From: a virus
IMG/VR virus record: IMGVR_UViG_3300022822_000034
Span: 1 to 43,792 of that record
Length of the DNA: 43,792 bases
Reading direction: 5' to 3' (one strand)
Position numbers and translations under genes: made by a program. This document shows, one piece after another, positions 1 through 43,792 of the stretch. The notes beneath the pieces are model-generated. The model searched no databases. It worked only from the letters and a program-made list of their open reading frames with translations, and was not told where the DNA came from. The stretch's first letter is position 1. The number at the start of each line of letters is the position of its first letter.

Positions 1-117
1 CTTGACTACACGGGACGTGAACGCGATCAGATCTTGGGTATTGCTTTGGATGTCAGCTTGCATAGTGCTGACCGCCCAGACGATAGCCGCCGCCTGAGTT
101 CCCAGGCCAAACAGCAG
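1..117. repeat. Terminal repeat S1, left copy (identical to 41124-41240)
   Basis: Base-by-base comparison gives 117 identical positions between 1-117 and 41124-41240, followed by a single difference and then further similarity with scattered changes. With repeat S2 it brackets two divergent versions of the tail-fibre cassette. It is most easily read as the contig running past its own start on a circular map. Confidence 0.95.
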
Positions 118-165
118 CGTGGCTGGTACGCTCTTAGAGACGTGCCATGTGTTTTGGTCAGCCAT
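1..165 (-). CDS. Holin-like membrane protein, second copy, cut by the window edge
   Basis: This is the 5' part (55 codons) of the same gene that is complete at 41022-41288. It starts at the ATG at 165-163 behind an AGGAGG ribosome binding site and runs off the window at base 1. The visible protein has one hydrophobic segment and the beginning of a helical tail. Bases 1-117 are identical to 41124-41240. The first difference (base 118) falls in a leucine/threonine stretch and is silent. It is the outer edge of tail-fibre cassette A and supports reading the two window ends as the same genomic locus. Confidence 0.75.
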   Translation of the reverse strand, partial: MADQNTWHVSKSVPATLLFGLGTQAAAIVWAVSTMQADIQSNTQDLIAFTSRVVK

Positions 166-230: not shown

Positions 231-394
231 TTAGTAGTGGCCAGCATCTTGGCTGTTAAGGAAACCGCCCATCAGGTCAGCCAGTAAACGCCGCTGTAAA
301 GAACAAACACTGGCAAGATTACAGGTGACAAAGACAAGAAAACACATAGGCGTTTGAAGCCGATGGCACGGGTTTATGAATAATTGCTGTTCAT
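231..394 (-). pseudogene. Broken copy of the two-helix membrane protein gene
   Basis: This is the counterpart of the intact 119-residue gene at 41354-41713. The start (394) and stop (231-233) contexts match that gene. Here, however, codon 7 is TAA where copy B has a glutamate codon, and about 196 nt are missing from the middle. Because 196 is not a multiple of three, the two halves are also out of frame. The remaining N-terminal part still resembles the intact protein (cytoplasmic start, first hydrophobic helix, YSGVYWL), and the tail DLMGGFLNxQDAGHY is still readable in another frame. Three independent lesions mean the product is dispensable in genomes carrying cassette A, or that this is a decayed allele. 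Confidence 0.85.
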
Positions 395-405
395 TAAATT
401 ATACC

Positions 406-1404
406 TTATTTCATCCTGTCTATGGCGGCTTCAAGTGCATCAATGCGACCCAGCGCCTCTTGTAAAGACGCAACCAAGATAGGCGTCAGTTTTGCGTAAT
501 CAACCGACTGCATGTCAGGAACAGAACGTGTTCCCATGATGGCTTCTTCTGCTTCTGTAGCTGGAGTAACTTCATACTCCTCTTCAATCATACCATCTTT
601 AGTACCAGTAACAGCACGGGGTAAAACATCCTGCAACTCATGAGCAAGAAAACCGTCGTACCAAATGCCGTCAACAATAGCTGTGTAAGTGCAAGGGTTC
701 ATTGCTTTCACAATGTCAGACGCACCCTGTATCGGCGTTACGTTTTCTTTGAGGCGATAGTCTGACGATGTGTTGTAGGTTGTTGCAGACGATGTGATGG
801 AGATATCCCCAACAGTGCTTCCAGCGTACTGCCACCTAGCTACATGACCAAAGCCGCTGTGGCGACCTCCGCTGAAAGCCGCATCATCGTCGCACAAGGC
901 ACTAATTTGCCCACTGAACCCCAATCCAATCCCAGCGCCAGAGCTGTTATTTGAAGGATACCCATCATCGAGTAGACCACCGAGGGTAAAGTTACCGCTA
1001 GACATTTTAGCATAAACTTTACTATTTATGCCAAAGTATAAAGGGTTATTGCTAACTGTACCGACCAACATAGCGTTGTTTCCCATGTCAGTATAGTTTC
1101 CCCCGATGCCGTTTTCACCGCTACTATTAACCATAGAAACCACGCCTGAGGTGGACCCATCTACTGAAACTTTTAGACCTGCACCCCCCGGCTCACCACC
1201 AGAGTTTGACTTGTCCCCTACTAAATCGACAACAGCATAACCCTCGCTCTCAACAGAAAACGTGCGGGTGTCTGTTGTACCGTTTACAGCGGAGACTTTT
1301 ACGTCCCCGTTGGCATCTATTGTCACAACACCAGTGAGGCCAGAGCCATCACCTGTTGGCGTAAGCACCCCAGATGGTGCTACTTTGTCTGATAGATTTG
1401 CCAT
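406..1404 (-). CDS. Tail fibre/spike with C-terminal Peptidase_S74 chaperone domain (cassette A)
   Basis: A 332-residue protein. The first residues (MANLSDKVxPSGV) are shared with the unrelated-looking 172-residue protein at the same place in cassette B, so they are probably the attachment or assembly part. The middle is Gly/Ser/Asn-rich and likely beta-structured. From about residue 211 comes SSDYRLKENV, the signature of the intramolecular chaperone auto-processing domain (Peptidase_S74), with the expected Ser214 and Lys219 of the Ser-Lys dyad. A helical C-terminus (EALGRIDALEAAI) ends the protein. In this family the chaperone trimerises the spike and is then released by self-cleavage in front of the serine. 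The start overlaps the preceding stop (TAATG). Host recognition is inferred. Confidence 0.85.
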   Translation of the reverse strand: MANLSDKVAPSGVLTPTGDGSGLTGVVTIDANGDVKVSAVNGTTDTRTFSVESEGYAVVDLVGDKSNSGGEPGGAGLKVSVDGSTSGVVSMVNSSGENGIGGNYTDMGNNAMLVGTVSNNPLYFGINSKVYAKMSSGNFTLGGLLDDGYPSNNSSGAGIGLGFSGQISALCDDDAAFSGGRHSGFGHVARWQYAGSTVGDISITSSATTYNTSSDYRLKENVTPIQGASDIVKAMNPCTYTAIVDGIWYDGFLAHELQDVLPRAVTGTKDGMIEEEYEVTPATEAEEAIMGTRSVPDMQSVDYAKLTPILVASLQEALGRIDALEAAIDRMK

Positions 1405-1943
1405 TAGGGTTTCCCTCCACTAATCTTCATTGCTTTAACAAATAGTTCATCCATTTCTTCATCTGTGTAGTCCAAAGCCCAACCGATGAGAGATATGTCT
1501 TGACTGAGGCGGTTCCACTGAGGGCTATCATCAATAGTGACCTTAACAGAGAAAGGTGTCTCAGGTTCATCACGGTAAGCGACAACCTTGGCCCATGCTT
1601 CTGCCCCCAGTGCGATCTTACCTTGAAGGGATGTACAGGACATAAGCGAACGTGGGTCTGGGACAGGGGCTTCGGCTAGAGCGTCATCTGGCTTTACGTG
1701 GTCCAGCTTAGAGATCGTAACCTGTTCACCATCAGGGAGCCAATAAGTCTCACCGCGCATGTCATTAACGCTAGACCAAGCACCTTGTGAAAATACAGCA
1801 ACCGTACCCTCTTTGTGAGGGGCTGTAATATCTGTGGCATTTGCGGGGATTAGAAACCGCCCTAAGTCCAATGGGTCTTCTCGTGCTAACGAAGTGCCTA
1901 CAAACTCCCCAGTATCTCCGTTGAAGTGATATAAGTGTTTCAT
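1404..1943 (-). CDS. Tail fibre assembly-like protein (cassette A)
   Basis: 179 residues. The N-terminus (YHFNGDTGEFVGTSLA, then DPL and LIPANATD) has the pattern common in tail-fibre assembly proteins found just behind fibre genes. The C-terminal half contains MSCTSLQGKIALGAEAW and a conserved acidic helix. Copy B (42245-42781) is about the same length and clearly homologous, but it differs mainly between residues 26 and 70. It begins behind an AAAGGA ribosome binding site, 10 nt after the main fibre gene. The role, fibre folding or attachment or a small baseplate-like part, is inferred from position and pattern. Confidence 0.7.
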   Translation of the reverse strand: MKHLYHFNGDTGEFVGTSLAREDPLDLGRFLIPANATDITAPHKEGTVAVFSQGAWSSVNDMRGETYWLPDGEQVTISKLDHVKPDDALAEAPVPDPRSLMSCTSLQGKIALGAEAWAKVVAYRDEPETPFSVKVTIDDSPQWNRLSQDISLIGWALDYTDEEMDELFVKAMKISGGKP

Positions 1944-1953
1944 TGGATTTCCT

Positions 1954-3822
1954 TTAGAATTTGATGCAGTACAGCATTGCTATGTTGCGTGGACGTGTTT
2001 CGTCTCCGCCGGTGTTCTCGGTATATCTGTTACGCTCATCGCCTTCTGCGCCGCTGACAGTTGTTTCGTGACTCGATAATCTAGTGCCAGAAGCCGCCGA
2101 GTTTGAATGGGTGTTGGATGTGATTACGGGCGAAATGTGCCTGTGTTGGTGTAATTCATCAGCTTGCGCCGAACCGATCACACGGTTTCCGTCAACGCCA
2201 CGTCCGTTGTCCCAGCCACGAATGAACTCTCCTCGAAGGTCCGGAATAGCAAAGGTTGTTGACCCGTCACCCACGCCGAAAGCAGTCCCGATGGCTGTAA
2301 ACAAGTTCGAATATGTAGTCCGTGATACGGCTGACCCGTCACACTCTAGCCAGCCTGTCGGGACCGACGTAAAGGCAAATGCGGAAATCGCCCCCGCAAG
2401 TGTGGTAACAATTCCGGTAAGCGCAGAGCCGTCACCTGTGAATACAGCGTTACTAAAAGATGGAGCGTCTAAGGTCTTGTTAGTAAGCGTTTGCGTTCCA
2501 GCTTCAGTAACTACTGTCCCACTGCTGACACCTACTTGAGCATAAATATGCCATGTGCTACCATCGTATACGAAGTCAATAGACACACCACCGATGTTCA
2601 TTACTAGGTCAGCAGCATCACCCTCAATAGATGAACCATTGCGTGCTACAGTCAGGTTATTGGTTGCCCAGTCTGAACCGTCTAGAACACGAACTAAGTC
2701 ACCAACACCAGGTGATGATGGCAACGTAAGTGTCCAAGCCCCACCAGAAGTGTCAGCTAGAATAGCGTCATTGTTTGCTGATGTGTAATTAGATGTCTTT
2801 CTAGCCCAAGCTAAACCAGCGACAATGCCTGTGAGAGCCGAACCGTCACCATCTGGCTGCAATGCACTATCTGCCGTAGAACCCTGTGCCGCCGTGGCAT
2901 AGTCTGTGCTTGCTGTAGTGGCTGCAGTACCCAATCCGAGGTTAGTGCGTGAAGTAGAAACTGAGGCCACATCTGACAAATTGTTTGCGCCAGACAGAGC
3001 ATCTGACAAAGAGTCCAAAGCCTCTAGCGCAGCGTCTTTAGAAGCCTGCGCGGAAGCGTCAGAAGATGCAGCATTTGCTGCGGATACCAACGCTTCACCA
3101 GCCTGTGCCGTTGCTACTCCAGCTTGTGTGGTTGCTACCCCAGCCTGTGTCGTTGCTACTCCAGCTTGTGCCGTTGCTGTAGATGCAGAAGTTCCAGCGT
3201 TAGCTTCAGCAGTCTCTGCATTAGTTTTTGCAGTTTGAGCCAAAACTTTAGCTGCGTCTGCCTGATTGGCTTTTGTATTGGCGAGGGCTGCACTGTCAGA
3301 AGCCTGAGAGGCACTGGTGGAGGCCTCAGAGGCCGATGTTGATGCATTGCTATCGTGAGTGGAAGCACTGGCCTGTGCTGACTCAGCTGCCACCCGTGCG
3401 GCCTGTGCAGCCACCTTAGAAGCAAGCGCCGCTACTTCAGAGGCATCTGATGCAATCTCGCTTGCAGCTGCCAGGGATGCTGATGCTGATGCATTTTCTA
3501 AGTGGCTATCAACTAAACTCTCAAAGGATGCTGCTTGTAATTCTGACGCAGCGGCGGCCACCTTGCTATTTTCAGCTTGGGTGGCGCTATCAGCAGCATC
3601 AGCCACACTGTTAGCGGCAAGGGTAGCGGAGGCCTGGGCAGCTGACGCATTGTTACTTGCTACATTGGCATCAGCGGCAATCTGTTGTGCAGCAGCTGCA
3701 GCAGAGGCAGCAGAAGAGGCGGCGGCGTCTTTGTGGCCCTTGACCTCATCTGTAATAATTTCGAGATCTGAGATATAATTGGTGGACACACCAGTGCCAT
3801 TGAAAAACGAAGATTTTGCCAT
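1954..3822 (-). CDS. Main tail fibre with Ala-rich coiled coil and tail-collar domain (cassette A)
   Basis: 622 residues. Residues 30-290 are Ala/Ser-rich with long heptad-like stretches, including four near-perfect 7-residue units (AGVATTQ type), which points to a trimeric coiled-coil shaft. Around residues 330-480 comes the TLTNKTLD...FTGDGSALTGI pattern typical of phage fibres. The last 150 residues form a phage tail collar domain (SVPTGWLECDG, then DLRGEFIRGWDNGRG), ending in GGDETRPRNIAMLYCIKF. The stretch between GSAQADELHQH and the conserved end is the part that differs most from copy B (42792-43792), as expected for a receptor-contacting tip. It starts just after the adaptor gene, with AGGA upstream. 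Confidence 0.88.
   Translation of the reverse strand: MAKSSFFNGTGVSTNYISDLEIITDEVKGHKDAAASSAASAAAAAQQIAADANVASNNASAAQASATLAANSVADAADSATQAENSKVAAAASELQAASFESLVDSHLENASASASLAAASEIASDASEVAALASKVAAQAARVAAESAQASASTHDSNASTSASEASTSASQASDSAALANTKANQADAAKVLAQTAKTNAETAEANAGTSASTATAQAGVATTQAGVATTQAGVATAQAGEALVSAANAASSDASAQASKDAALEALDSLSDALSGANNLSDVASVSTSRTNLGLGTAATTASTDYATAAQGSTADSALQPDGDGSALTGIVAGLAWARKTSNYTSANNDAILADTSGGAWTLTLPSSPGVGDLVRVLDGSDWATNNLTVARNGSSIEGDAADLVMNIGGVSIDFVYDGSTWHIYAQVGVSSGTVVTEAGTQTLTNKTLDAPSFSNAVFTGDGSALTGIVTTLAGAISAFAFTSVPTGWLECDGSAVSRTTYSNLFTAIGTAFGVGDGSTTFAIPDLRGEFIRGWDNGRGVDGNRVIGSAQADELHQHRHISPVITSNTHSNSAASGTRLSSHETTVSGAEGDERNRYTENTGGDETRPRNIAMLYCIKF
2828..2954. repeat. Terminal repeat S2, internal copy (identical to 43666-43792)
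   Basis: 127 consecutive bases are identical to the last 127 bases of the window. The first mismatch on the inner side is at 2827 versus 43665. It lies inside the tail-fibre gene at the junction of shaft and distal part. An exact 127-base overlap that stops precisely at the sequence end is what a de Bruijn assembly graph edge with k=127 would leave. That origin is inference. Confidence 0.95.
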
Positions 3823-3828
3823 GTGATC

Positions 3829-4443
3829 CTAGTCCTGGTAATTTGTAGTTGGGCGGATTGCTTGGACTGTCCCAGATGTCTCAGCATCATTTGCTTGCTG
3901 CTGTAGTTCCGACAGGAATGTGTTCAGCTTTTGTTCAAAAAGACCCCCGCGTTCATCAATGAAATAATCTGCCGCATACGATAGGGCACCATAGGTCACC
4001 GCATCTGATGCAATACTGGTTAAGTCATTAGTGTCAGTATCAGCAATTAAGTCCGTAAATTGACCATAATAGTTGAGATAGAGAGTTCCCGATGTGGGCC
4101 GTGGGTATAGAACCAACGACCCTTGCTCTCTGGCAAAGAACAATGGAGACCCTAGATCGTTGATCTTTTTCATCTCCAAGATGGTTCGCATGGGGACACG
4201 GGACAAAGAGGTGCTGTCGAAGTAGATGTCGATAATCTCAAGGAAATCAGCTGGTAGAATTATGCTATCTTGAGGAGACGGGGAGTTGATTGCATAAGCC
4301 TGCTGCCTCTCCATTGGAGGGATGCGGATGAGGCGCTGGATCCGACTGATAGATTGGTCAATGAAGGTATCGGCCAGGGCGTCTACACAGTCTGAGCGGT
4401 TCAGTAGTGCTTTGAAGTGGGCACGTATCTGGCCTTTGTTCAT
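3829..4443 (-). CDS. Probable head-to-tail adaptor (gp4-like) protein
   Basis: 204 residues, predominantly helical, with N-terminal helices (DALADTFIDQSISRIQRLIRIPPMERQQ) and then a central beta portion (ILPADFLEIIDIYFDS, SLVLYPRPTSGTLYLNYYG). The C-terminal helix-rich part (AVTYGALSYAADYFIDE) is long. This arrangement resembles the small phage adaptor proteins that join portal ring and tail in podoviruses, and the position between capsid and tail fibre genes fits. It starts directly behind the stop of the 46-residue gene (TTAAATG arrangement on the coding strand). No catalytic motif is seen. A tail-tube role is the main alternative. Confidence 0.6.
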   Translation of the reverse strand: MNKGQIRAHFKALLNRSDCVDALADTFIDQSISRIQRLIRIPPMERQQAYAINSPSPQDSIILPADFLEIIDIYFDSTSLSRVPMRTILEMKKINDLGSPLFFAREQGSLVLYPRPTSGTLYLNYYGQFTDLIADTDTNDLTSIASDAVTYGALSYAADYFIDERGGLFEQKLNTFLSELQQQANDAETSGTVQAIRPTTNYQD

Positions 4444-4584
4444 TTAACTTGTCCTTTTTTTGGCTGTCTTAGCGGCCTTTTTGAAAGCGCCATCTGTTGG
4501 TGCACCTTTGGCACCCTTTTCCCGCATGGGTTTACCCGCGGCACGTTTCTTGTGGATGTTTGCGTAAAGGCCAGGTTTAGCCAT
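4444..4584 (-). CDS. Small basic protein, 46 residues
   Basis: The translation begins MAKPGLYANIHKKRAAG and continues MREKGAKGAPTDGAFKKAAKT, about one third Lys/Arg. Small phage proteins with a MAKPGLYANI-type start and a GxKGAPTxxAF motif are, from memory, common next to capsid or adaptor genes. Its start overlaps the stop of the Cys-rich gene (ATGGCTAA) and its TAA abuts the adaptor ATG. It therefore sits in a tightly coupled chain. A different, longer reading frame crosses the same DNA but has no such coupling. The function is unknown. Binding to DNA or to an acidic virion partner would fit the charge. Confidence 0.8.
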   Translation of the reverse strand: MAKPGLYANIHKKRAAGKPMREKGAKGAPTDGAFKKAAKTAKKRTS

Positions 4585-9451: not shown

Positions 9452-11032
9452 TCAGACCATTTCTATATAATAGTTGTCGGATGCCTCAATAGGCTCCCAG
9501 ATGCCCTGATGGACGTGGTTAGCTAATGCGAGGCTCATCACACAGTCATCAAAACACCCGCCTTCTGCTTCCATGCCCCCACTCTCAGTGACGATATAGG
9601 TTAACATCTCACGGATCGTGACCTTGTCATTCAGTTCAATATCGTTGTCTCGGACAGCTGCCCGCAGTTCATCGATGATCAGGGGTTTTGTTTTTGATGT
9701 TGTGGTGAAGCCTAGTTTGACAGTCTCTCGATCTGTCAGCTTGTCCATCTGGACCTCTGTGTAGAAGTTCGGATAGGACATATCCTTACCCAGCCTAGTG
9801 CACGTGAGAATGCCGTGGCTGTTGTTCTCTACAATGATGTGGGCCTCGTTGTAGTACATACCAAGATGATAGAGCACTTGAGCATAGTAATCGGGGTGGA
9901 CATGGCCACGCCAGGTAGCCACTTGCCGCTTTTTACTGTCGAGAACCTGGGCAACACTGTAGTCACCACCGCGGACACCCATCGCAACATCAGCACCAAT
10001 TACATACTGTTCGCCATTGACATGAGGAACAAAGATCGACAGTTCACCACGCGGGTTTACCATCCACTCATCAGTTTCTAATGCTAGACGCTGCTTGAGG
10101 TCTTCGGTGTTATCAATGCGCTTCTGGAGTGGCTCCAGGTTAAACACAGGGCGACCCGTGGTTAGGAAAGCCTCTTCAGCATAGCTTGGGTATTCCTGAC
10201 GAAAGAGATCTAGGCCGTTCTGGGCAATCTTGCGACGACGAAACATCAGCTGCCTGTCATCGAGGTCATACTCTTTGATCAGGTCTTCTTCGTCAGGTGT
10301 ACGCTCAAAGTTCTCTGGCACATCTTCTCGGTAGGTCGCATCAGCAAACCACGGGATGAACACAGGGACATACCCATTGGTCCCTTCACAGGCACCCTTC
10401 CAGAGGTCATAAAATACCCCTGTGACGCCATTCGCTGTACTCTCAACAAAGATGGCTGTGCCTGGTGTGTTTGGGACCGCCTGGGTCATACCGTTCCAGT
10501 TCTCTAGGGCGGTACTCTTTGTCCAAAAGGCGATCTCTGAAGCGTGGACGTGGGTTAGGGTCTCACCTCGACCAATGCTCTCACCACCAGCTGTAGCAAC
10601 AACAAAAGAACTATCCAGCTGGTCAAAAGACAACTCTCTGCGGCTGGAGTATTTCGTGTGTGGCTTGAGGATGTCTGGGCAGTTCTCATGGTATCTCTTG
10701 GTCATATCAAAGAGGGCACGGGTACTGTCAGAGTGGTGTGTGATAACCATAGCTTTCGCAGCTGGGCGTTGGCTCACGGAGAAGTAAAGGTAGCCTCCAA
10801 CGTAGGTCGAAAGACCCTGCTGTCGTGCCTTAAGGATGATGACCCGCACCTTGCCCTCAGTAGCAACCTGCTTAGTGACCGCATCATTTAGGATGGTCTG
10901 GGCACTGTTTAGCTTGAGGGGCTGGATGTCACCAGATTTGGTGCGGATCTTCAGTGAGTGCTTGGAGTAGAAGTCAAAGTCATTCAGAAGGCGCAAGCGC
11001 ACCTCTCTCAGTTTATTCTTCGTCTGGTTCAT
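9452..11032 (-). CDS. Terminase large subunit
   Basis: 526 residues. The ATPase part shows a Walker A-like KARQQGLS at 68-75, a Walker B-like LTHVHASE ending in Glu166, and the coupling-type segment IFVESTANG at 194-202. The nuclease part begins near residue 340 with VIGADVAMG (Asp348) and GGDYSV (Asp357). A further acidic cluster lies near the C-terminus (GGCFDDCVMSLAL), as expected for the RNase H-like metal-binding nuclease. It overlaps the small-subunit gene by 20 nt. It powers DNA packaging through the portal and cuts concatemers. Confidence 0.93.
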   Translation of the reverse strand: MNQTKNKLREVRLRLLNDFDFYSKHSLKIRTKSGDIQPLKLNSAQTILNDAVTKQVATEGKVRVIILKARQQGLSTYVGGYLYFSVSQRPAAKAMVITHHSDSTRALFDMTKRYHENCPDILKPHTKYSSRRELSFDQLDSSFVVATAGGESIGRGETLTHVHASEIAFWTKSTALENWNGMTQAVPNTPGTAIFVESTANGVTGVFYDLWKGACEGTNGYVPVFIPWFADATYREDVPENFERTPDEEDLIKEYDLDDRQLMFRRRKIAQNGLDLFRQEYPSYAEEAFLTTGRPVFNLEPLQKRIDNTEDLKQRLALETDEWMVNPRGELSIFVPHVNGEQYVIGADVAMGVRGGDYSVAQVLDSKKRQVATWRGHVHPDYYAQVLYHLGMYYNEAHIIVENNSHGILTCTRLGKDMSYPNFYTEVQMDKLTDRETVKLGFTTTSKTKPLIIDELRAAVRDNDIELNDKVTIREMLTYIVTESGGMEAEGGCFDDCVMSLALANHVHQGIWEPIEASDNYYIEMV

Positions 11033-36292: not shown

Positions 36293-38779
36293 GAAGCAAT
36301 ACTCACTTTCTAAGACCCCGCGGATGTCCAATGTGCCTTTAGCTGGGACAGGTGGTAGAACTTTGTTGGGGTCAGAGACACGCTGTGCAACCTGATTTCT
36401 GATCTCCTCAAAGAAGCAGCCACCTTCATACTGATCCACAAAAGCATGTCTCACACAGTGATACATCTTCCATGTGTCTGCACAGGTGGTCGCAAAGCTG
36501 TCGTGGATCATAAAGAAGTCAGTGACGCCATTATCCAGTGCCATCAGGATTGTGTTGATCATGTGTGCACTGTCGAGGGAGTGAACAGCATTTGCCGCCA
36601 CAGCAGACCGCATCTTCTTTGTGTCGATTTTGTTGGGGTTTTCCTCACGTACCGTCAACTGTGTCCAACGCTCTTTCTTGATCTGCCGATCCCAAAGGTA
36701 AATGCGAACCTTCTTGGGGATCCACTTTGTGTAGCTTTGGATGACAGGGAAACCACAAGGGGTCTGCCAGCGCAGTGTCTTCCCTTCCATAGATACAGCA
36801 TCTGTGAGTTCTTGTAGGAATTTCATGCCATCTGCCACGGACTTCACAACCTCTTGGACTGCCATGTAGTTTACTTTTGCCAAGAGGGCCGCATGTTTGA
36901 CTTGGGATTTGTTGTCACCGAAGGGGTGCTTTTCAATCCGACCATGCGCAACGTCACGGCGAAGAGGTGCCATGAGATCTTCCAGAATCTGGTCACAGAA
37001 CCCACGCTCAACGCTTGAGTACCCGTAGGTCATAGTGTTGCGCTTTACCTCTTTGCGACCCACGCCAAAGGCCAGCCAAGCGTCTGCAATAGGATCACCT
37101 TTGAGTTCTCCTAACAGGCGTGTGGATACCAAGGCCACGGCTGCATACACATCCTGACACTTGTCGCTGGGGATCAAGTTCACCAGCATCGCATCATCAG
37201 AATTACGCATGGCACTTGAGTAGTGCTGAACACCAGAGTTGGTCCCGTCCATAGCTGGGGGAAGACACACTAACGCATCAGGATCATTTTGCAGCTTGGC
37301 GTACTCATAGATTGCTGCAAGAAACTGAAAAGGTTTGTCTGCATGACGCCACCACTCGTAAGTCTCTTTGTAGCTATGGGCCGTAGCCATGATCTTTTCG
37401 TGGTGCTCTGCTACCCAATCAATCCGATCTTGAAACGAACTTTTGGACACTTTAGAAAAGTCACCGCAGTTGGCTAGGTGAATAGACAACCAGTCACGTG
37501 TGTCCCCGTCTACCGCTTTTCCGTTTGATAGGGTGAACAGGGCTTTGACGTGGTCATCGCGGTGATAGTTGAATGTGCTTACGGGATATAGACGGCCACG
37601 GAAATCAAAATTCCAAGGCAACCAAAACTCAGAATACAAGGACATCTCATTTGCAGTCTTGAGAACTGCATAAATGTTACCCTGGTTGGCATCAGTCTCT
37701 CTTGCTTTAGCATGCCAAGCCTTCTGATCCTTGCGCAGCTGCATGGCAATTTCTGGGTCCATTTCATCAATGTTCTCTGGTGTCTTAGGGAACTTTGGCG
37801 AGACCAACTCTGGGAACTTACCGAAAGCTAAACGGTTCTCAGTAGCCCATTCTAGCACAGCTAAGACATCTGTGTTGATCTTCAATGGGGTAGCCTGGAC
37901 AGCGTTCAAGGCCTTTACATAGTCTGGCGTACCATACTTCTCGAATTGATGCTGTATGGCCTTTCTCTGCTCTCTGTTGGCCCCTCTGACAAGAGGGACT
38001 GAAGAAGACAAAGCAAAGTCATAGTAGCAACCCGTGTTAAAAGCAGTCCATGGCTGCGGGGGTACAATCATTGGGCCGTACATTGGTTCAGCCCAGGACG
38101 CATCAGTCTCCATGCTAAACAGGTTTGCTCTAGCCTCTTCAGTCAGACCAACGACCATCTTGGTGTTTATTGTACCAGCGTTTAGATCAAAAGTTGTAAA
38201 GAGATCTGAGGAACTCAAGACGGAACTCAGGATTGGGCCACCTACTACGACACAATCTTTTGCACTCCACTTTGCTGGCTTGTAGCCTTCCTTAGACGCA
38301 ATAATCCTAGCTGCTTTGATACGGTAGACCTGAGATGTGTGGTCTTTGGTGACCTGGGCCGTGATGCGCTTGAAGAGTGCCTTGTCATACTGAGCCAAAC
38401 CCAGGGCAAAGTTCTCCAGTTCTATTCTACGACCAATCTTGCTTGCTGTGGATGTCAAAGATCCAAAACTCAAGACACTATCAAAGCAAGTATTCAGACC
38501 AATGTAGGCTAAAGCACCAACATCAACATCTTTTAAATGCTGAAGCCACTGCCTGGGTCTCCCACTCGTTCCCCCATCCGTAGGTGCAGCGGTCTGGAGA
38601 TTTATCATGGTGTCAATTTCTAGCGAGACCCTAGTTATCGCTAAAGTTATTAGTTTATGTGGTTCGTTCATCGTGGAAGCTGAAGTCATCTTAGATTGTC
38701 TCTTAAGATACCTTTGCTGGCCGTCAGTTTTCATTTTGTTTTCTAAAGTTGCCTGTAGATCAATATTCGTATTAGTCAA
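36287..38779 (-). CDS. T7-like single-subunit RNA polymerase
   Basis: 830 residues (T7: 883). Motif A is MDGTNSGVQHYS (Asp511), motif B is KRNTMTYGY (Lys579, Tyr587), and motif C is MIHDSFAT (Asp760), the counterparts of T7 Asp537, Lys631, Tyr639 and Asp812. The C-terminus ends in an aromatic-Ser pair (YCFS), close to the T7 FAFA end. The likely start is TTG at 38779 because GGGAGAG stands 6 nt upstream. The first ATG (38734) has no such site. A TTG start and promoter P3 directly upstream suggest tight, self-amplifying control. It transcribes phage genes from P1-P3. Confidence 0.94.
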   Translation of the reverse strand: MTNTNIDLQATLENKMKTDGQQRYLKRQSKMTSASTMNEPHKLITLAITRVSLEIDTMINLQTAAPTDGGTSGRPRQWLQHLKDVDVGALAYIGLNTCFDSVLSFGSLTSTASKIGRRIELENFALGLAQYDKALFKRITAQVTKDHTSQVYRIKAARIIASKEGYKPAKWSAKDCVVVGGPILSSVLSSSDLFTTFDLNAGTINTKMVVGLTEEARANLFSMETDASWAEPMYGPMIVPPQPWTAFNTGCYYDFALSSSVPLVRGANREQRKAIQHQFEKYGTPDYVKALNAVQATPLKINTDVLAVLEWATENRLAFGKFPELVSPKFPKTPENIDEMDPEIAMQLRKDQKAWHAKARETDANQGNIYAVLKTANEMSLYSEFWLPWNFDFRGRLYPVSTFNYHRDDHVKALFTLSNGKAVDGDTRDWLSIHLANCGDFSKVSKSSFQDRIDWVAEHHEKIMATAHSYKETYEWWRHADKPFQFLAAIYEYAKLQNDPDALVCLPPAMDGTNSGVQHYSSAMRNSDDAMLVNLIPSDKCQDVYAAVALVSTRLLGELKGDPIADAWLAFGVGRKEVKRNTMTYGYSSVERGFCDQILEDLMAPLRRDVAHGRIEKHPFGDNKSQVKHAALLAKVNYMAVQEVVKSVADGMKFLQELTDAVSMEGKTLRWQTPCGFPVIQSYTKWIPKKVRIYLWDRQIKKERWTQLTVREENPNKIDTKKMRSAVAANAVHSLDSAHMINTILMALDNGVTDFFMIHDSFATTCADTWKMYHCVRHAFVDQYEGGCFFEEIRNQVAQRVSDPNKVLPPVPAKGTLDIRGVLESEYCFS

Positions 38780-38813
38780 AAACTCTCTCCCAAAGTCTCA
38801 GTGTTAAACTCAA

Positions 38814-38845
38814 GTTGTCCGTAGGGTCACAGGAAGTCTATAGTC
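38814..38845 (-). promoter_or_regulatory. Putative phage RNA polymerase promoter P3 (RNA polymerase gene)
   Basis: On the minus strand CTATAGACTTCCTGTGACCC is followed by TACGGACAAC, identical in its core to P1. It lies 35 nt before the polymerase start. Part of it (38828-38839) is repeated inverted at 38880-38891. Confidence 0.7.
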
Positions 38846-38891
38846 TTGTTTTTATTGGCTTTTATGGTTCTCGGAAAACAGACTTCCTGTG
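38828..38891. repeat. 12-bp perfect inverted repeat around the P3 region
   Basis: CACAGGAAGTCT at 38828-38839 and its reverse complement at 38880-38891, separated by 40 nt of A/T-rich DNA. The near arm is part of promoter P3. The far arm lies just after the integrase stop (38901). It could be a regulator-binding pair, a hairpin closing the integrase transcript, or a broken promoter in the other direction. Confidence 0.85.
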
Positions 38892-38900
38892 GGTGTAAAT

Positions 38901-39746
38901 TTACTGGTTTCCCAGCTTTCTCATAATATCCTGCAAGGCTTTAGGCTTTGCGTGGACGTACTTTGCAGTTGTAGCGACATTCCGATGCCCAAGTATTTGG
39001 CCAATAAGTAGTGTATTAACACCGAGTTCATTTGCCATTGTCGAGGCCGCAGTGTGCCTTAAGACGTGAAAGACAAATGTTTCATCACCACGGGCAATTT
39101 TTGACCTTGCCATGTCCCAAGCATTGTAGAAGCGGCGGTGCGTAAACTTGTTGCCAGGGGTGTTCCCCAGCGCCTCTAAAGCCAACTTAGCTTTGTCATT
39201 GAGGGGCACCCAGCGGTCATCACCGTTTTTGGTTGACGAAAGGTAGACCCACGTCTCTCCGTCCATCACTTGTATATCGTCAGGTGTAATCTTGAGTATC
39301 TCACCCAGACGCATGCCCGTGTTCACTGCAATGGTAACCATGTGTGGCATCATAGTACGCACCCACGGGTCATCAGACGCCAAAAACAGGTCATCTAACG
39401 ACTGTATCTCGTCTTTTGTCATGTACCGTGGGCGGCCAGACCGCACCTTGTGCCATTTGATTTTCGGGGCAGCTGTTAAGATCTCCATGTCAACAGCAAG
39501 GTTGAAGACCGTGGATATAGCTGCAAAATAATGGTTGACTGTATTAGCACTCTTGCCCTCAGAGAGCATGAAGTCTCCGAAAGAATACAGGTCAGCGGGT
39601 TTAAATTGGTCAATAGCCCGTAGGCTGTGGTCGGCATACTCGCAGAACTTCAAGATGCGAGATTTACTTTCCTTGAGGTGTCGTCCATGCCAGAGGCGCG
39701 AGGCGTTCACATTCGTAAAGTCTTGTAGATACATAAGTTCAGTCAT
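38901..39746 (-). CDS. int: Tyrosine-type integrase
   Basis: 281 residues from the ATG at 39746 (MTELMYLQDFTNVNASR), with AAAGGAGACGACA upstream. The open frame further up runs into the attP element and is not needed. The catalytic set is complete: Arg146 (NTGMRLGE), Lys173 (STKNGD), His227 and Arg230 (HVLRHTAAS), His254 (GHRN) and Tyr263 (KYVHAK). The N-terminal half is the core-binding SAM-like domain. Its neighbour is the tRNA-Thr fragment, so it should integrate the phage genome into a host tRNA-Thr gene. No excisionase gene was recognised. Confidence 0.94.
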   Translation of the reverse strand: MTELMYLQDFTNVNASRLWHGRHLKESKSRILKFCEYADHSLRAIDQFKPADLYSFGDFMLSEGKSANTVNHYFAAISTVFNLAVDMEILTAAPKIKWHKVRSGRPRYMTKDEIQSLDDLFLASDDPWVRTMMPHMVTIAVNTGMRLGEILKITPDDIQVMDGETWVYLSSTKNGDDRWVPLNDKAKLALEALGNTPGNKFTHRRFYNAWDMARSKIARGDETFVFHVLRHTAASTMANELGVNTLLIGQILGHRNVATTAKYVHAKPKALQDIMRKLGNQ

Positions 39747-39789
39747 TGTCGTCTCCTTTGTGAAGAGCCGATTATGTCCGATGATCTTT

Positions 39790-39867
39790 TCGCTGGTAAA
39801 AAATGGTGCCCCCACACGGACTCGAACCGCGGACCTACTGATTACAAATCAGTTGCTCTACCAGCGA
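39790..39867. repeat. 9-bp inverted repeat flanking the tRNA fragment
   Basis: TCGCTGGTA at 39790-39798 and TACCAGCGA at 39859-39867 bracket the tRNA 3' segment. They may be integrase core-type or arm-type sites. Part of the second arm belongs to the tRNA itself. Confidence 0.75.
39804..39863 (-). other. attP: attP candidate: 60-nt 3' part of a tRNA-Thr(TGT) gene
   Basis: On the minus strand the sequence runs from TGGTAGAGC through the anticodon stem-loop (ACTGA-TTTGTAA-TCAGT, anticodon TGT), the T-arm (CGCGG-TTCGAGT-CCGTG) and acceptor strand TGGGGGC, to ACCA. The 5' acceptor strand and D-stem partner that a working tRNA needs are absent upstream (there is a different hairpin, ATGACCTCGGTCAT). 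It lies 57 nt from the integrase start. Phages that integrate into tRNA genes carry exactly such a 3' portion to rebuild the gene. Both flanks are phage DNA, so this is attP, not attL/attR. Confidence 0.88.
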
Positions 39868-40021
39868 TGACCTCGGTCATACGCTCTGGGTAAACGGATA
39901 TAGAAGACCGTGACACCAAGCAAGCCACTACTGCGCCAATTTTGAAAAAACACAGATCAAAAACCAATACTACCGATGTACCGATGTCTGACCTGTGTAG
40001 TCTGGGGGAACCACCCTTCCT
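39868..40021. other. Intergenic DNA between attP and lysis genes
   Basis: No gene seen. It contains a perfect hairpin (ATGACC/GGTCAT at about 39867-39880), A/T-rich DNA with an A run and a tandem 8-mer (ACCGATGT twice, near 39968-39986). These could be integrase arm sites. On the minus strand TTGCTT and TATATC are spaced 15 bases apart, too short for a confident sigma-70 promoter for the integrase. Confidence 0.4.
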
Positions 40022-40249
40022 CTAAGGAGTGCAGCCAGCGTCAATGGCCGCGATGAGAGAGGCTCCAGTTTCTATGGACTGGCGACCTCCCTCTAACAAC
40101 AAAGCGTCTGTGTGGGCGTCCCTGAGAGCCTCAGTGCCATCACACAGTGCCGATGTACTAACGCTTACGCTTGAGCAGCCACTCACGGCCACCACCAGCG
40201 TCAGCAATGCTATCCTCGGCCAGGTCAATTGTTTTCCGCGTGTCAACAT
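40022..40249 (-). CDS. o-spanin (Rz1-like lipoprotein)
   Basis: 75 residues from the ATG at 40249. The open frame begins earlier but the lipoprotein signal starts here: MLTRGKQLTWPRIALLTLVV, then AVSGC with Cys25 as lipid attachment site, leaving 51 residues mature. It overlaps the i-spanin by 92 nt in another frame, the classic Rz/Rz1 arrangement. Together they bridge inner and outer membrane and fuse them at lysis. The mature part has two further cysteines (ALCDG, DAGC) that could link dimers. Confidence 0.85.
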   Translation of the reverse strand: MLTRGKQLTWPRIALLTLVVAVSGCSSVSVSTSALCDGTEALRDAHTDALLLEGGRQSIETGASLIAAIDAGCTP

Positions 40250-40379
40250 AGTCCTGTAGCCTCTCTGTCTCTTGTTCAATTTTAGCACTTTGGCGACCGT
40301 GGAGGTACGCAAAAGCAATGGCCCCTAGCAGCACACTCAGCGCCGCCAGGTAGCCTTTGATCTTAGCGAGGATCCACAT
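40158..40379 (-). CDS. i-spanin (Rz-like)
   Basis: 73 residues from the ATG at 40379, which overlaps the endolysin stop as TAATG. An alternative ATG 21 nt earlier lies within the endolysin gene. One membrane helix (residues 7-26, KGYLAALSVLLGAIAFAYLHG) at the N-terminus is followed by a charged coiled-coil periplasmic part (QSAKIEQETERLQDYVDTRKTI) and a basic end (REWLLKRKR). This is the inner-membrane partner of the o-spanin encoded inside it. It is short compared with lambda Rz, as in many phages of Gram-negative bacteria. Confidence 0.85.
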   Translation of the reverse strand: MWILAKIKGYLAALSVLLGAIAFAYLHGRQSAKIEQETERLQDYVDTRKTIDLAEDSIADAGGGREWLLKRKR

Positions 40380-41008
40380 TAGCGGTCCCCAGCTTTCCAC
40401 CTCAGAAGTCGCTCCTTCAGAACAACTAATGCAGTCAAGGCAATGATCACTGCACCCCCCAAGACAATTAGCTGTGCTGTGCTGTCGAGAGCAGACACCG
40501 CAGTCACACCAGCACCAGCAGCTGCAGCCAACTGAGTTACTGATGCTTGCATGGTCTTGCTCTGGGCAATTGATTTACGCGGTTGTGCAATTGTTCTCAC
40601 GTCCAGCACACGATTACGTGCATATGCCTGTACGGTTACTGAGTTACCCTGGTTACCGCCCAAGACATACACATTGATGTCATCGTGGTGGGAATAGAAG
40701 GCAACATGGCCTTTCCAGCTGTCACGAGATCCTCTCCAGAAGACCACAACATCACCTGGCTTGGCGCTGTTCATATCCACAGTCTTACCCCAAGTCAGGT
40801 AAGATCGTGCGTTCAATTTGTTTGTGCCAGGGACGCCACATTCAGCCAACACAGAACCCACAAAAGCGGCACACCAAGGCGTCTCATCATCTTGAACCCA
40901 AGAGTGACCAGAGTCAGCGTAAAACTTAATGATTTGTGGGTTGTGTTTAGCACCTGGGTATTCTTTTAGCCCAGTGTATCCCTTGGCAACATCATAGATG
41001 TGTTGCAT
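40379..41008 (-). CDS. Endolysin (CHAP/NlpC-like) with C-terminal membrane segment
   Basis: 209 residues. Residues 1-135 form a TIGR02594-like peptidoglycan hydrolase: KEYPGAKHNPQI, then ETPWCAAFV with Cys46, and KGHVAFY with His101, the Cys/His pair of NlpC/P60-CHAP enzymes. After a linker (RKSIAQSKTMQASVTQL), an Ala-rich stretch leads to a hydrophobic helix at about 178-197 (AQLIVLGGAVIIALTALVVL) followed by KERLLRWKAGDR. It has no N-terminal signal. The tail anchor is unusual for an endolysin and may hold it at the inner membrane until lysis. It follows the holin-like gene by 13 nt. Confidence 0.87.
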   Translation of the reverse strand: MQHIYDVAKGYTGLKEYPGAKHNPQIIKFYADSGHSWVQDDETPWCAAFVGSVLAECGVPGTNKLNARSYLTWGKTVDMNSAKPGDVVVFWRGSRDSWKGHVAFYSHHDDINVYVLGGNQGNSVTVQAYARNRVLDVRTIAQPRKSIAQSKTMQASVTQLAAAAGAGVTAVSALDSTAQLIVLGGAVIIALTALVVLKERLLRWKAGDR

Positions 41009-41021
41009 TTGGTTTCTCCAG

Positions 41022-41288
41022 TTAACGCGTCAGTGCCATCTGTTCAACGGACTTGCGTATGTGCATGATATTTTCATCAATCCGAGCCATCGAGACAGCT
41101 TGGTCTTGGACCATTTCCTCAACCTTGACTACACGGGACGTGAACGCGATCAGATCTTGGGTATTGCTTTGGATGTCAGCTTGCATAGTGCTGACCGCCC
41201 AGACGATAGCCGCCGCCTGAGTTCCCAGGCCAAACAGCAGTGTGGCTGGTACGCTCTTAGAGACGTGCCATGTGTTTTGGTCAGCCAT
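41022..41288 (-). CDS. Holin-like membrane protein
   Basis: 88 residues, starting behind AGGAGG (TAGGAGGTTGCCGT). There is one hydrophobic segment at about 12-33 (VPATLLFGLGTQAAAIVWAVST), then a helical, mostly coiled-coil tail (DIQSNTQDLIAFTSRVVKVEEMVQDQAVSMARIDENIMHIRKSVEQM). Its position directly before the endolysin and spanins and the single-helix plan fit a small holin. Pore formation is inferred. A second copy begins at the left end of the window (1-165). Confidence 0.75.
   Translation of the reverse strand: MADQNTWHVSKSVPATLLFGLGTQAAAIVWAVSTMQADIQSNTQDLIAFTSRVVKVEEMVQDQAVSMARIDENIMHIRKSVEQMALTR
41124..41240. repeat. Terminal repeat S1, right copy (identical to 1-117)
   Basis: See 1-117. 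This copy sits inside the complete holin-like gene. Confidence 0.95.
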
Positions 41289-41353
41289 ACGGCAACCTCC
41301 TATTATTTTTGGAGTAAGGCTTATTGGGCCACGCTCAAGTTGTTATTATTTCT

Positions 41354-41713
41354 TTAGTAGTGCCCAGCATCTTGGCCGTTAAGAAACCCGCCCATCAAGT
41401 CTGCCAACTCACGGACAGACGGATTGGGATGCCCCTTCAGCCTGCGCAATCTCGTTGTTGTCTGAAATTCACGCGGCCATTCACCAAATAGGATTGTGCA
41501 GACTGTCCAGTTGTGGATCGTGTTGATTACTACGAAGGCTGCAACTGGTAAGGCGATAACGTACCAGCGCCAACCTGTGTGCCAATTGTTGCGCTTGAGC
41601 CAATAGACACCACTGTAAAGGATGAACACTGGGAGAACTACAAGGGCTAACGATAGGAACACACATAGGCGTTTGAAGCCGATGACACGGGTTTCTGAGT
41701 AATTGCTGTTCAT
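41354..41713 (-). CDS. Two-helix membrane protein (intact copy)
   Basis: 119 residues. There are two membrane helices: about 17-38 (CVFLSLALVVLPVFILYSGVYW) and 48-66 (WRWYVIALPVAAFVVINTI), with a charged cytoplasmic C-terminus (REFQTTTRLRRLKGHPNPSVREL). It sits between the fibre cassette and the holin-like gene, so it may be a second holin, antiholin or superinfection-exclusion factor. No family was recognised. The counterpart in cassette A (231-394) is clearly broken, so the function is optional or linked to the fibre allele. Confidence 0.75.
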   Translation of the reverse strand: MNSNYSETRVIGFKRLCVFLSLALVVLPVFILYSGVYWLKRNNWHTGWRWYVIALPVAAFVVINTIHNWTVCTILFGEWPREFQTTTRLRRLKGHPNPSVRELADLMGGFLNGQDAGHY

Positions 41714-41723
41714 ATAAGTACCC

Positions 41724-42242
41724 CTAGAATTTAATGCAGTACATCAGTGCTACGTTTCTGGGCCTCGTTTCTGAGCCACCTGAGGCGCTAACAAGAGGAA
41801 AACGCGAAGATGAGTTTGTTGTATTATAAACGTATCTCCCGTATGTCGAACCTGATGCCGCCTCTGTCCCCCAAGGGGAGTTGCTTACAGTGGTTTCTGT
41901 ATAAGCGTTTTGACGGTGCTGGTGTTCTGCAAATTCTTCAGCTTGTGCAGAACCAATCGCACGGCTTGCGTCAACGCCACGTCCGTTGTCCCAGCCACGG
42001 GGAAACTCGCCGCGCATGTCTGGCCCGCCAACGAAGGTTGTGGACCCATCCCCCGCACCATAGGTTGTTCCGATCTTTGCAAAAAGAGCAGCATACGTGG
42101 ATCGTGAAATTAGTTCACCTTTCGCCTCTAAATAACTAGTAGGCGGGGTTATCATGGCAAAACACATGATTGCTCCAACTGGAACCCCGTCATCAACAAG
42201 AGCAACGCCGGAGGGGGGTACTTTATCTGATAGGTTTGCCAT
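41724..42242 (-). CDS. Short tail-collar fibre protein (cassette B)
   Basis: 172 residues. It starts with the same MANLSDKVxPSGV as the 332-residue S74 fibre in cassette A, then turns into a tail-collar domain (GVPVGAIMCFAM, then GDGSTTFVGGPDMRGEFPRGWDNGRGVD), a variable stretch (EHQHRQNAYTETTVSNSPWG, then SGSTYGRYVYNTTN) and the conserved end SGGSETRPRNVALMYCIKF. The two alleles thus share an N-terminal docking segment and carry entirely different distal domains. It lies 2 nt behind the assembly-like gene. Confidence 0.83.
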   Translation of the reverse strand: MANLSDKVPPSGVALVDDGVPVGAIMCFAMITPPTSYLEAKGELISRSTYAALFAKIGTTYGAGDGSTTFVGGPDMRGEFPRGWDNGRGVDASRAIGSAQAEEFAEHQHRQNAYTETTVSNSPWGTEAASGSTYGRYVYNTTNSSSRFPLVSASGGSETRPRNVALMYCIKF

Positions 42243-42244
42243 TA

Positions 42245-42781
42245 CTATTGTTCTCCGTTAATAAGCATTGCGGTTATAAATAAATCATCCATCTGTTCAT
42301 CCGTGTAGTCCAAAGCCCAACCAATGAGAGATATGTCTTGACTAAGGCGGTTCCACGTAGGGCTATCGTCAATAGTTACCTTAACAGAAAAGGGTGTCTC
42401 AGGTTCATCACGGTAGGATATGACACTAGCCCATGCTTCTGCCCCCAGTGCGATCTTACCTTGAAGGGATGTACAGGACATAAGCGAACGTGGGTCGGGG
42501 ACAGGGGCTTCGTCTAGGGCATCATCTGGCTTCATATGGCCTAGCTTATCAATCGTAACCTGTTCACCATCAGGCAGCCAGTAGACCTCCCCACGGTTGT
42601 CATCCACGTTAGTCCAAAAACCGTTCATAAATACAGAAGCCATACCATCTTTGTGAGAGGCTGTAAAATCTGTGGCATTGGCTGGGATCAAATAAGCGCC
42701 TTCGACCAGAGGGTCTTTTCGTGCCAAAGATGTACCAACAAATTCGCCAGTCTCTCCGTTGAAGTGATATAACTCTTTCAT
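42245..42781 (-). CDS. Tail fibre assembly-like protein (cassette B)
   Basis: 178 residues, homologous to the 179-residue protein of cassette A. The first 25 and last 80 residues are nearly the same (YHFNGETGEFVGTSLA, MSCTSLQGKIALGAEAWASV, SPTWNRLSQDISLIGWALDYTDE). The region in between (about 26-70) and the last ten residues differ, matching the different fibre tips next door. It starts 10 nt after the main fibre gene. Confidence 0.7.
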   Translation of the reverse strand: MKELYHFNGETGEFVGTSLARKDPLVEGAYLIPANATDFTASHKDGMASVFMNGFWTNVDDNRGEVYWLPDGEQVTIDKLGHMKPDDALDEAPVPDPRSLMSCTSLQGKIALGAEAWASVISYRDEPETPFSVKVTIDDSPTWNRLSQDISLIGWALDYTDEQMDDLFITAMLINGEQ

Positions 42782-42791
42782 GGTGTTCCCT

Positions 42792-43792
42792 TTAGAATTT
42801 GATGCAATACATCATTGCGATGTTGCGTGGACGAGTTTCATCACCACCTACAAACGAAGTTTTCGCCTGGAACCTTTGATAAGTTCCGTTTGACCAACTT
42901 GAATTGGGGCCGTTTGATGTAGGCGAACTGCCGTAAGCGGTTTGTACATCTTTATAGTTTTTACGGCCACCAATGTGTTGATGACTGGCAAAGGCTTCAT
43001 CTTGTGAAGAACCAAATACACGCCCTGCGTCAATTCCACGCCCGTTATCCCAACCGCGAATAAACGGGCCGCGAAGGTCTGGAATAGCAAAAGTCGTGGA
43101 CCCGTCACCAGCGCCGAAAGTGTCACCTATTGCTGTGAACAAGTCTGAATAGGTGGTTCGAGACACCGTTGACCCGTCACATTCTAGCCAGCCTGTCGGA
43201 ACCGATGTAAACGCAAAAGCTGACACAGCACCAGAAGTTGTCGCAACAATACCAGTAAGTGCTGAACCGTCCCCTGTGAACACGGCATTGCTGAAAGACG
43301 GGTCGTCTAAAGTCTTGTTAGTAAGCGTTTGCGTTCCAGCTTCAGTAACCACTGTCCCACTGCTGACACCTACTTGAGCATAGACCTGCCATGTGCTTCC
43401 ATCGTACACAAAATCAACAGACACACCACCGATGTTCATTACTAGGTCAGCAGCATCACCTTCAACAGTAGAACCATTGCGAGCCACAGTTAGGTTATTG
43501 GTTGCCCAGTCTGAACCGTCTAGAACACGAACTAAGTCACCAACACCAGGTGATGATGGCAACGTAAGTGTCCAAACCCCACCAGAAGTGTCAGCTAGAA
43601 TAGCGTCATTGTTTGCTGATGTGTAATTAGATGTCTTTCTAGCCCAAGCCAGACCAGCAACAATACCTGTGAGAGCCGAACCGTCACCATCTGGCTGCAA
43701 TGCACTATCTGCCGTAGAACCCTGTGCCGCCGTGGCATAGTCTGTGCTTGCTGTAGTGGCTGCAGTACCCAATCCGAGGTTAGTGCGTGAAG
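42792..43792 (-). CDS. Main tail fibre, distal part (cassette B), cut by the window edge
   Basis: The 3' 333 codons of the gene. The 5' part lies beyond 43792. The apparent start at 43772 is just a TTG leucine codon inside the gene. It is nearly identical to cassette A up to the tail-collar domain, then differs in the tip: GSSQDEAFASHQHIGGRKNY and so on until GGDETRPRNIAMMYCIKF. The missing coiled-coil shaft is presumably the one present at 2955-3800 in cassette A, since the last 127 bases equal 2828-2954. Confidence 0.88.
   Translation of the reverse strand, partial: SRTNLGLGTAATTASTDYATAAQGSTADSALQPDGDGSALTGIVAGLAWARKTSNYTSANNDAILADTSGGVWTLTLPSSPGVGDLVRVLDGSDWATNNLTVARNGSTVEGDAADLVMNIGGVSVDFVYDGSTWQVYAQVGVSSGTVVTEAGTQTLTNKTLDDPSFSNAVFTGDGSALTGIVATTSGAVSAFAFTSVPTGWLECDGSTVSRTTYSDLFTAIGDTFGAGDGSTTFAIPDLRGPFIRGWDNGRGIDAGRVFGSSQDEAFASHQHIGGRKNYKDVQTAYGSSPTSNGPNSSWSNGTYQRFQAKTSFVGGDETRPRNIAMMYCIKF
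43666..43792. repeat. Terminal repeat S2, right end copy (identical to 2828-2954)
   Basis: See 2828-2954. The repeat ends exactly at the last base of the sequence. Confidence 0.95.

Follow-up and report, generated by a model that had tools for sequence, protein, structure and literature searches.

Fibre modules shared between unrelated phages have been described for the Alteromonas phages A5, V22 and P24, where phages that differ in morphology have in common a block made up of the fibre, its cognate chaperone and small neighbouring genes (PMC10579305). Hypervariable host-recognition clusters were also described in the pelagimyophages, in which a variable fibre island of environmental phages lies within a conserved structural region; these islands average about 45 kb and carry glycosyltransferases (PMC7029224). 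The locus analysed here resembles both systems in these respects and is a clear member of the same known kind, the hypervariable host-recognition (tail fibre) modules, seen through an effect of assembly. It contains receptor-binding fibre genes with an assembly/chaperone gene, it occurs in differing versions on a near-identical backbone, and the module is common to unrelated phages (L018, L016, L019 and L170). The backbones of A5, V22 and P24 are unrelated (PMC10579305), whereas at least three versions were found here on one near-identical backbone in one lake, and the 119-aa membrane protein of this locus has no match in the phage collection. In contrast to the pelagimyophage islands, the slot measures about 3 kb and holds only fibre, assembly and one membrane gene. 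Membership in the S74 (PF13884) and Collar (PF07484) fibres is ordinary, the short fibre of cassette A being of the S74 type and the main fibre and the short fibre of cassette B of the Collar type; what is notable in comparison with ordinary fibres of these families is that both types replace each other at the same cassette position. Cassettes A and B, found at the two ends of the sequence, are very probably coexisting alleles of one host-recognition slot that were joined through the backbone by de Bruijn assembly.

The window, which is the whole stretch of DNA analysed, is the virus record IMGVR_UViG_3300022822_000034 with a length of 43,792 bases. It encodes a portal, large terminase, major head protein, T7-type RNA polymerase and DNA polymerase together with a primase-helicase, ribonucleotide reductase, thymidylate synthase and integrase. 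On the best reading it is a podovirus-type phage of Ace Lake, Antarctica, with a circular map, an integrase and an RNA polymerase of the T7 type. The 33000228xx samples are presumably from Ace Lake too, since their contigs match this phage exactly. The terminases of relatives are 81-82% identical to that of the window. The ends of the relatives G003 and G002 repeat by 141 and 123 bases respectively, so that both are closed circles and a circular map is normal for this phage group. Each of them carries one adaptor gene and one p88 gene, which are separated by about 209 bases without a fibre in G002 and by other fibre genes in G003. Since both genes are single-copy and the interval differs between the two relatives, the slot between adaptor and p88 is a natural variable site. 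A nucleotide search with both arms against 50,697 phage records gave no match, and a prophage and host search with the RNA polymerase and the membrane protein in the genomes of 84,980 bacterial and archaeal species gave none either. The features of the two arms and their flanks are as follows.

1..165, minus strand: 5' part of p88 on the A side (an 88-aa backbone gene), cut by the contig start; 1-117 identical to 41124-41240
231..394, minus strand: cassette A membrane-gene remnant, with a stop at codon 7 and an internal deletion of about 200 bases
406..1404, minus strand: cassette A short fibre, 332 aa, with C-terminal S74 intramolecular chaperone (PF13884, E 1.2e-8; PHROG tail fibre families)
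1404..1943, minus strand: cassette A tail fibre assembly protein, 179 aa (phrog_35518, E 5e-18; phrog_105, E 2e-16)
1954..3822, minus strand: main tail fibre, 622 aa (Collar PF07484, E 4e-24)
about 2828-3822 and about 1954-2827, minus strand: parts of the main fibre, constant N-terminal shaft and variable collar-type tip A respectively; contig L146 shares aa 1-330, then has another tip
2828..2954, no strand: 127-base block, right junction of the alternative arms, identical to 43666-43792
3829..4443, minus strand: SU10-type adaptor gene, backbone flank adjoining the fibre slot (PF24175, E 1e-21)
40379..41008, minus strand: CHAP-domain endolysin, backbone flank (PF05257, E 1.9e-7)
41022..41288, minus strand: complete copy of p88, backbone gene at the other slot edge; single homologue in the closed relatives G002 and G003
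41124..41240, no strand: 117-base block, left junction of the alternative arms, identical to 1-117
41354..41713, minus strand: cassette B membrane protein, intact, 119 aa, unnamed family (alignments; no PHROG, PDB or phage-record match)
41724..42242, minus strand: cassette B short fibre of the collar type, 172 aa, paralogous to the C-terminal part of the main fibre (PF07484, E 1.7e-17; 78% DNA match of 41932-42054 with 2153-2272)
42245..42781, minus strand: cassette B tail fibre assembly protein, 178 aa (phrog_35518, E 7e-21)
42792..43790, minus strand: cassette B main fibre, C-terminal 332 aa, 5' end missing at the contig end (PF07484, E 2e-23); completed only by joining 43792 to 2955
43666..43792, no strand: 127-base block identical to 2828-2954; the window and contig L006 both end with it

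The arms and their junctions were observed directly. The sequence-only reading had reported two exact repeats, 1-117 with 41124-41240 and 2828-2954 with 43666-43792, and comparison of the window with itself confirmed both as maximal at 117 and 127 bases; an exact repeat of 127 bases within a 44 kb sequence is far beyond chance. The circle sizes derived from them, 41,123 bp when closed with cassette A and 40,838 bp with cassette B, were arithmetically correct. The same gene order, that is tip, assembly protein, short fibre, membrane gene and p88 start, was indeed present twice, all on the minus strand in both arms, and the proposed change in the type of short fibre was borne out by the domain matches (Peptidase_S74 in A, Collar in B). 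The main fibre tips are of the Collar type in both arms, and the assembly proteins are 79% identical. The membrane gene had been described as differing between the arms, which it does, but the copy in A is a remnant and not a diverged allele. The window cuts a gene at each end (base 1 interrupts p88, base 43792 the B fibre), and only wrapping completes each of them.

Beyond the exact blocks the similarity is 97% for 1-283 with 41124-41406, 82% for 1367-2010 with 42205-42848 and 88% for 2159-2954 with 42997-43792, while the middle of the arms (about 283-1367 and 41406-42205) is unrelated apart from a short piece of the membrane gene. The claim that the variable block was mapped precisely held on the fibre side for A versus B, where the first difference is at 2827, but the other edge is blurred. 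There the overlap ends at a single-base difference (118/41241), beyond which the arms differ hardly at all up to about base 215; the left boundary of A and B is therefore gradual. The third allele described below departs earlier on the fibre side, from about 2859-2897. The synonymous distance between A and B was 0 in the shaft and 0.13-0.29 further on; it exceeded 1 in the collar domain and reached saturation at the very end of the tip, where the proteins are down to 32% identity. Such a rise from shaft to tip is as expected of recombining alleles. Mean dN was well below dS over the aligned fibre and assembly genes, and thus A and B both look like working genes.

The right overlap of 127 bases ends at the last base of the window. 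Overlaps of exactly this length were also found between contigs L016 and L019, which belong to one sample, and between L016 and L020. The right contig end behaves as a branch of a k=127 graph, in which a contig runs 127 bases into shared sequence and then stops. The last metaSPAdes k of these Ace Lake assemblies is presumably 127. The 2008/2009 and 2013-2015 Ace Lake samples were assembled by JGI, metaSPAdes being the assembler named (PMC7416419). Contig L006 of sample 3300022833 is 100% identical to 37596-43792, carries cassette B and stops at the same base, 43792. The branch point is set by the position at which B parts from its rival, which implies the presence of an A-like rival in that sample too. 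The break in L006 alone does not separate alleles from a tandem, because a tandem copy would break there at the same base. A third allele, C, was observed directly in contig L146, which has the same backbone at 99.9% over 11 kb and a different fibre tip after aa 330; this contig comes from the MEGAHIT co-assembly 3300035698, the only one of the data sets confirmed by a paper to be from Ace Lake. The bases exactly common to the window number 6,197 for L006 and 4,388 for L146, and given this long exact sharing the window should come from a third assembly. At 117 bases the left overlap is shorter than k=127, and the left end of A is therefore not a clean join of a k=127 graph; it may be a coverage dead end. 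The k list of the MEGAHIT meta-large setting includes both 117 and 127. This list was considered as the cause of both overlaps and was dropped in view of the exact bases that the window shares with the contig of that co-assembly.

A second phage lineage was found in sample 3300022833. Its contigs L016, L019 and L170 carry three different cassettes, one per contig, between constant flanks formed by the same amidase-like gene and the same 537-aa gene.

The choice between alleles and a tandem had been left open in the sequence-only reading, and the k=127 signature, the break of L006, the third allele, the second lineage and the closed relatives together favour alleles. A true serial duplication would place adaptor, fibre A cassette, a p88 copy, a second shaft, B cassette, p88 and CHAP in one genome, the assembler having broken at the repeated shaft, and its virion would show two fibre sets. 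The gene order does occur twice, and repeats of the shaft and p88 would make an assembly graph break at these positions too. Several points were counted against the allele reading: the left overlap falls short of k, the membrane gene of A is dead, which decay of a redundant second copy in series would explain too, and two related fibres stand in series in L016 and L008, so fibre arrays are present in the gene pool. However, the junction from p88 to a second shaft that a duplication requires was found in no record, L146 continues unbroken from the shaft into a third tip, each closed relative has one adaptor and one p88, and the second lineage has a single cassette per contig between its fixed flanks. 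Serial duplication is accordingly judged unlikely.

In a chimera, one arm would come from a different phage species sharing more than 127 bases of fibre shaft, which the presence of related cassettes in unrelated phages of the lake would allow; but the far end of A is 97% identical to the p88 region of this backbone, with a single mismatch over about 215 bases, and the independent assembly of L006 ties B to the backbone. A chimera is very improbable. Active switching in one lineage, by invertase phase variation or retroelement hypermutation, would agree with tail-tip diversity concentrated at the fibre C-terminus and with a tyrosine integrase about 1.5 kb away. Against it, A and B differ at many synonymous sites and in gene content. 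The two junctions share no 10-mer in direct or inverted orientation, which speaks against an invertible segment, and neither a template repeat in the window self-comparison nor a reverse transcriptase among the larger ORFs scanned was found, which speaks against a diversity-generating retroelement. Switching of this type is extremely improbable.

Under the allele reading, a single host-recognition slot lies between the adaptor gene and p88 with the CHAP endolysin, and at least three cassettes (A, B and C) fill it in the lake population. The assembler would have walked the backbone with A at one end and the backbone with B at the other, and no single virion need hold both. Each complete cassette, A or B, supplies a tip on the constant shaft along with its own assembly protein and a short accessory fibre; only B also brings an intact copy of the linked membrane protein gene. 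The cassettes are presumably swapped by homologous recombination, as the mosaic pattern suggests, with crossovers in the constant shaft and in short conserved stretches where genes begin; suitable homology is present in the shaft, in the opening dozen codons of the short fibre, at the C-terminus of the assembly gene and in the membrane gene. From the established role of fibre tips, a swap would presumably change the host receptor bound and thereby the host range. Outside the cassette, the differences that separate L146 from the window cluster at 4489-4521 and 10163-10330 (3 and 7 SNPs), two short patches of the pattern that patchy recombination would leave.

The sharing of cassettes among phages was directly observed. 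A 63.9 kb phage (L018) carries a related cassette with fibre, assembly protein, S74 fibre (68%) and membrane protein (92%), and further related cassettes occur in the amidase-bearing lineage (L016, L019, L170) and in other unrelated phages. At the short-fibre position, the two related fibre-like genes in series lie at L016:5482-7843, where they are 73% identical, and at L008:4048-6406. The fibre at L170:2903-5392 matches the L016 main fibre at 97% over its first 449 residues and the separate short fibre of L016 at 73% over the rest, and to judge from these alignments it would be a single protein in which the exchange of a tip between two genes can be seen. In a 41,595-base record (L098/G006) an internal 99-mer whose last base is 2687 recurs at the 3' end, and the two ends of the record hold differing copies of part of the 1667-aa gene of the window; by sequence this appears to be the same two-allele contig signature at another gene.

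The family of the 119-aa membrane protein was found at 25 loci on very different backbones (window 41354-41713, L018, L019, L020, L014, L170, L016 and L172-L187). The gene directly follows a fibre or assembly-like gene in most of the loci inspected, the exceptions being some upstream genes without a family match (L174, L176/L177 and L179). No match to the protein was obtained in PHROGs or PDB, by tblastn against the 50,697 phage records, or in Pfam above the cut-off. The alignment revealed an almost invariant C-terminal half, and the predicted structure is helical at low confidence (pLDDT 64). It is a tentative and rather doubtful proposal that unrelated phages of one Antarctic host pool pass the fibre cassette among themselves as a discrete unit, with the membrane protein as a new receptor-tied family that might, for example, block superinfection by way of the receptor used by its cassette; receptor-linked exclusion as its job is a guess.

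The finding means that two rival alleles can be contained in one long, nearly complete virus record, with the result that its length, its gene counts and the inference of host range are inflated. The Ace Lake data represent a natural experiment, in which one backbone bears three tips and related cassettes recur on backbones that are unrelated. If the exclusion reading were true, cassette A with its broken membrane gene would be exclusion-negative, and the fibre-linked membrane protein family is a testable lead.
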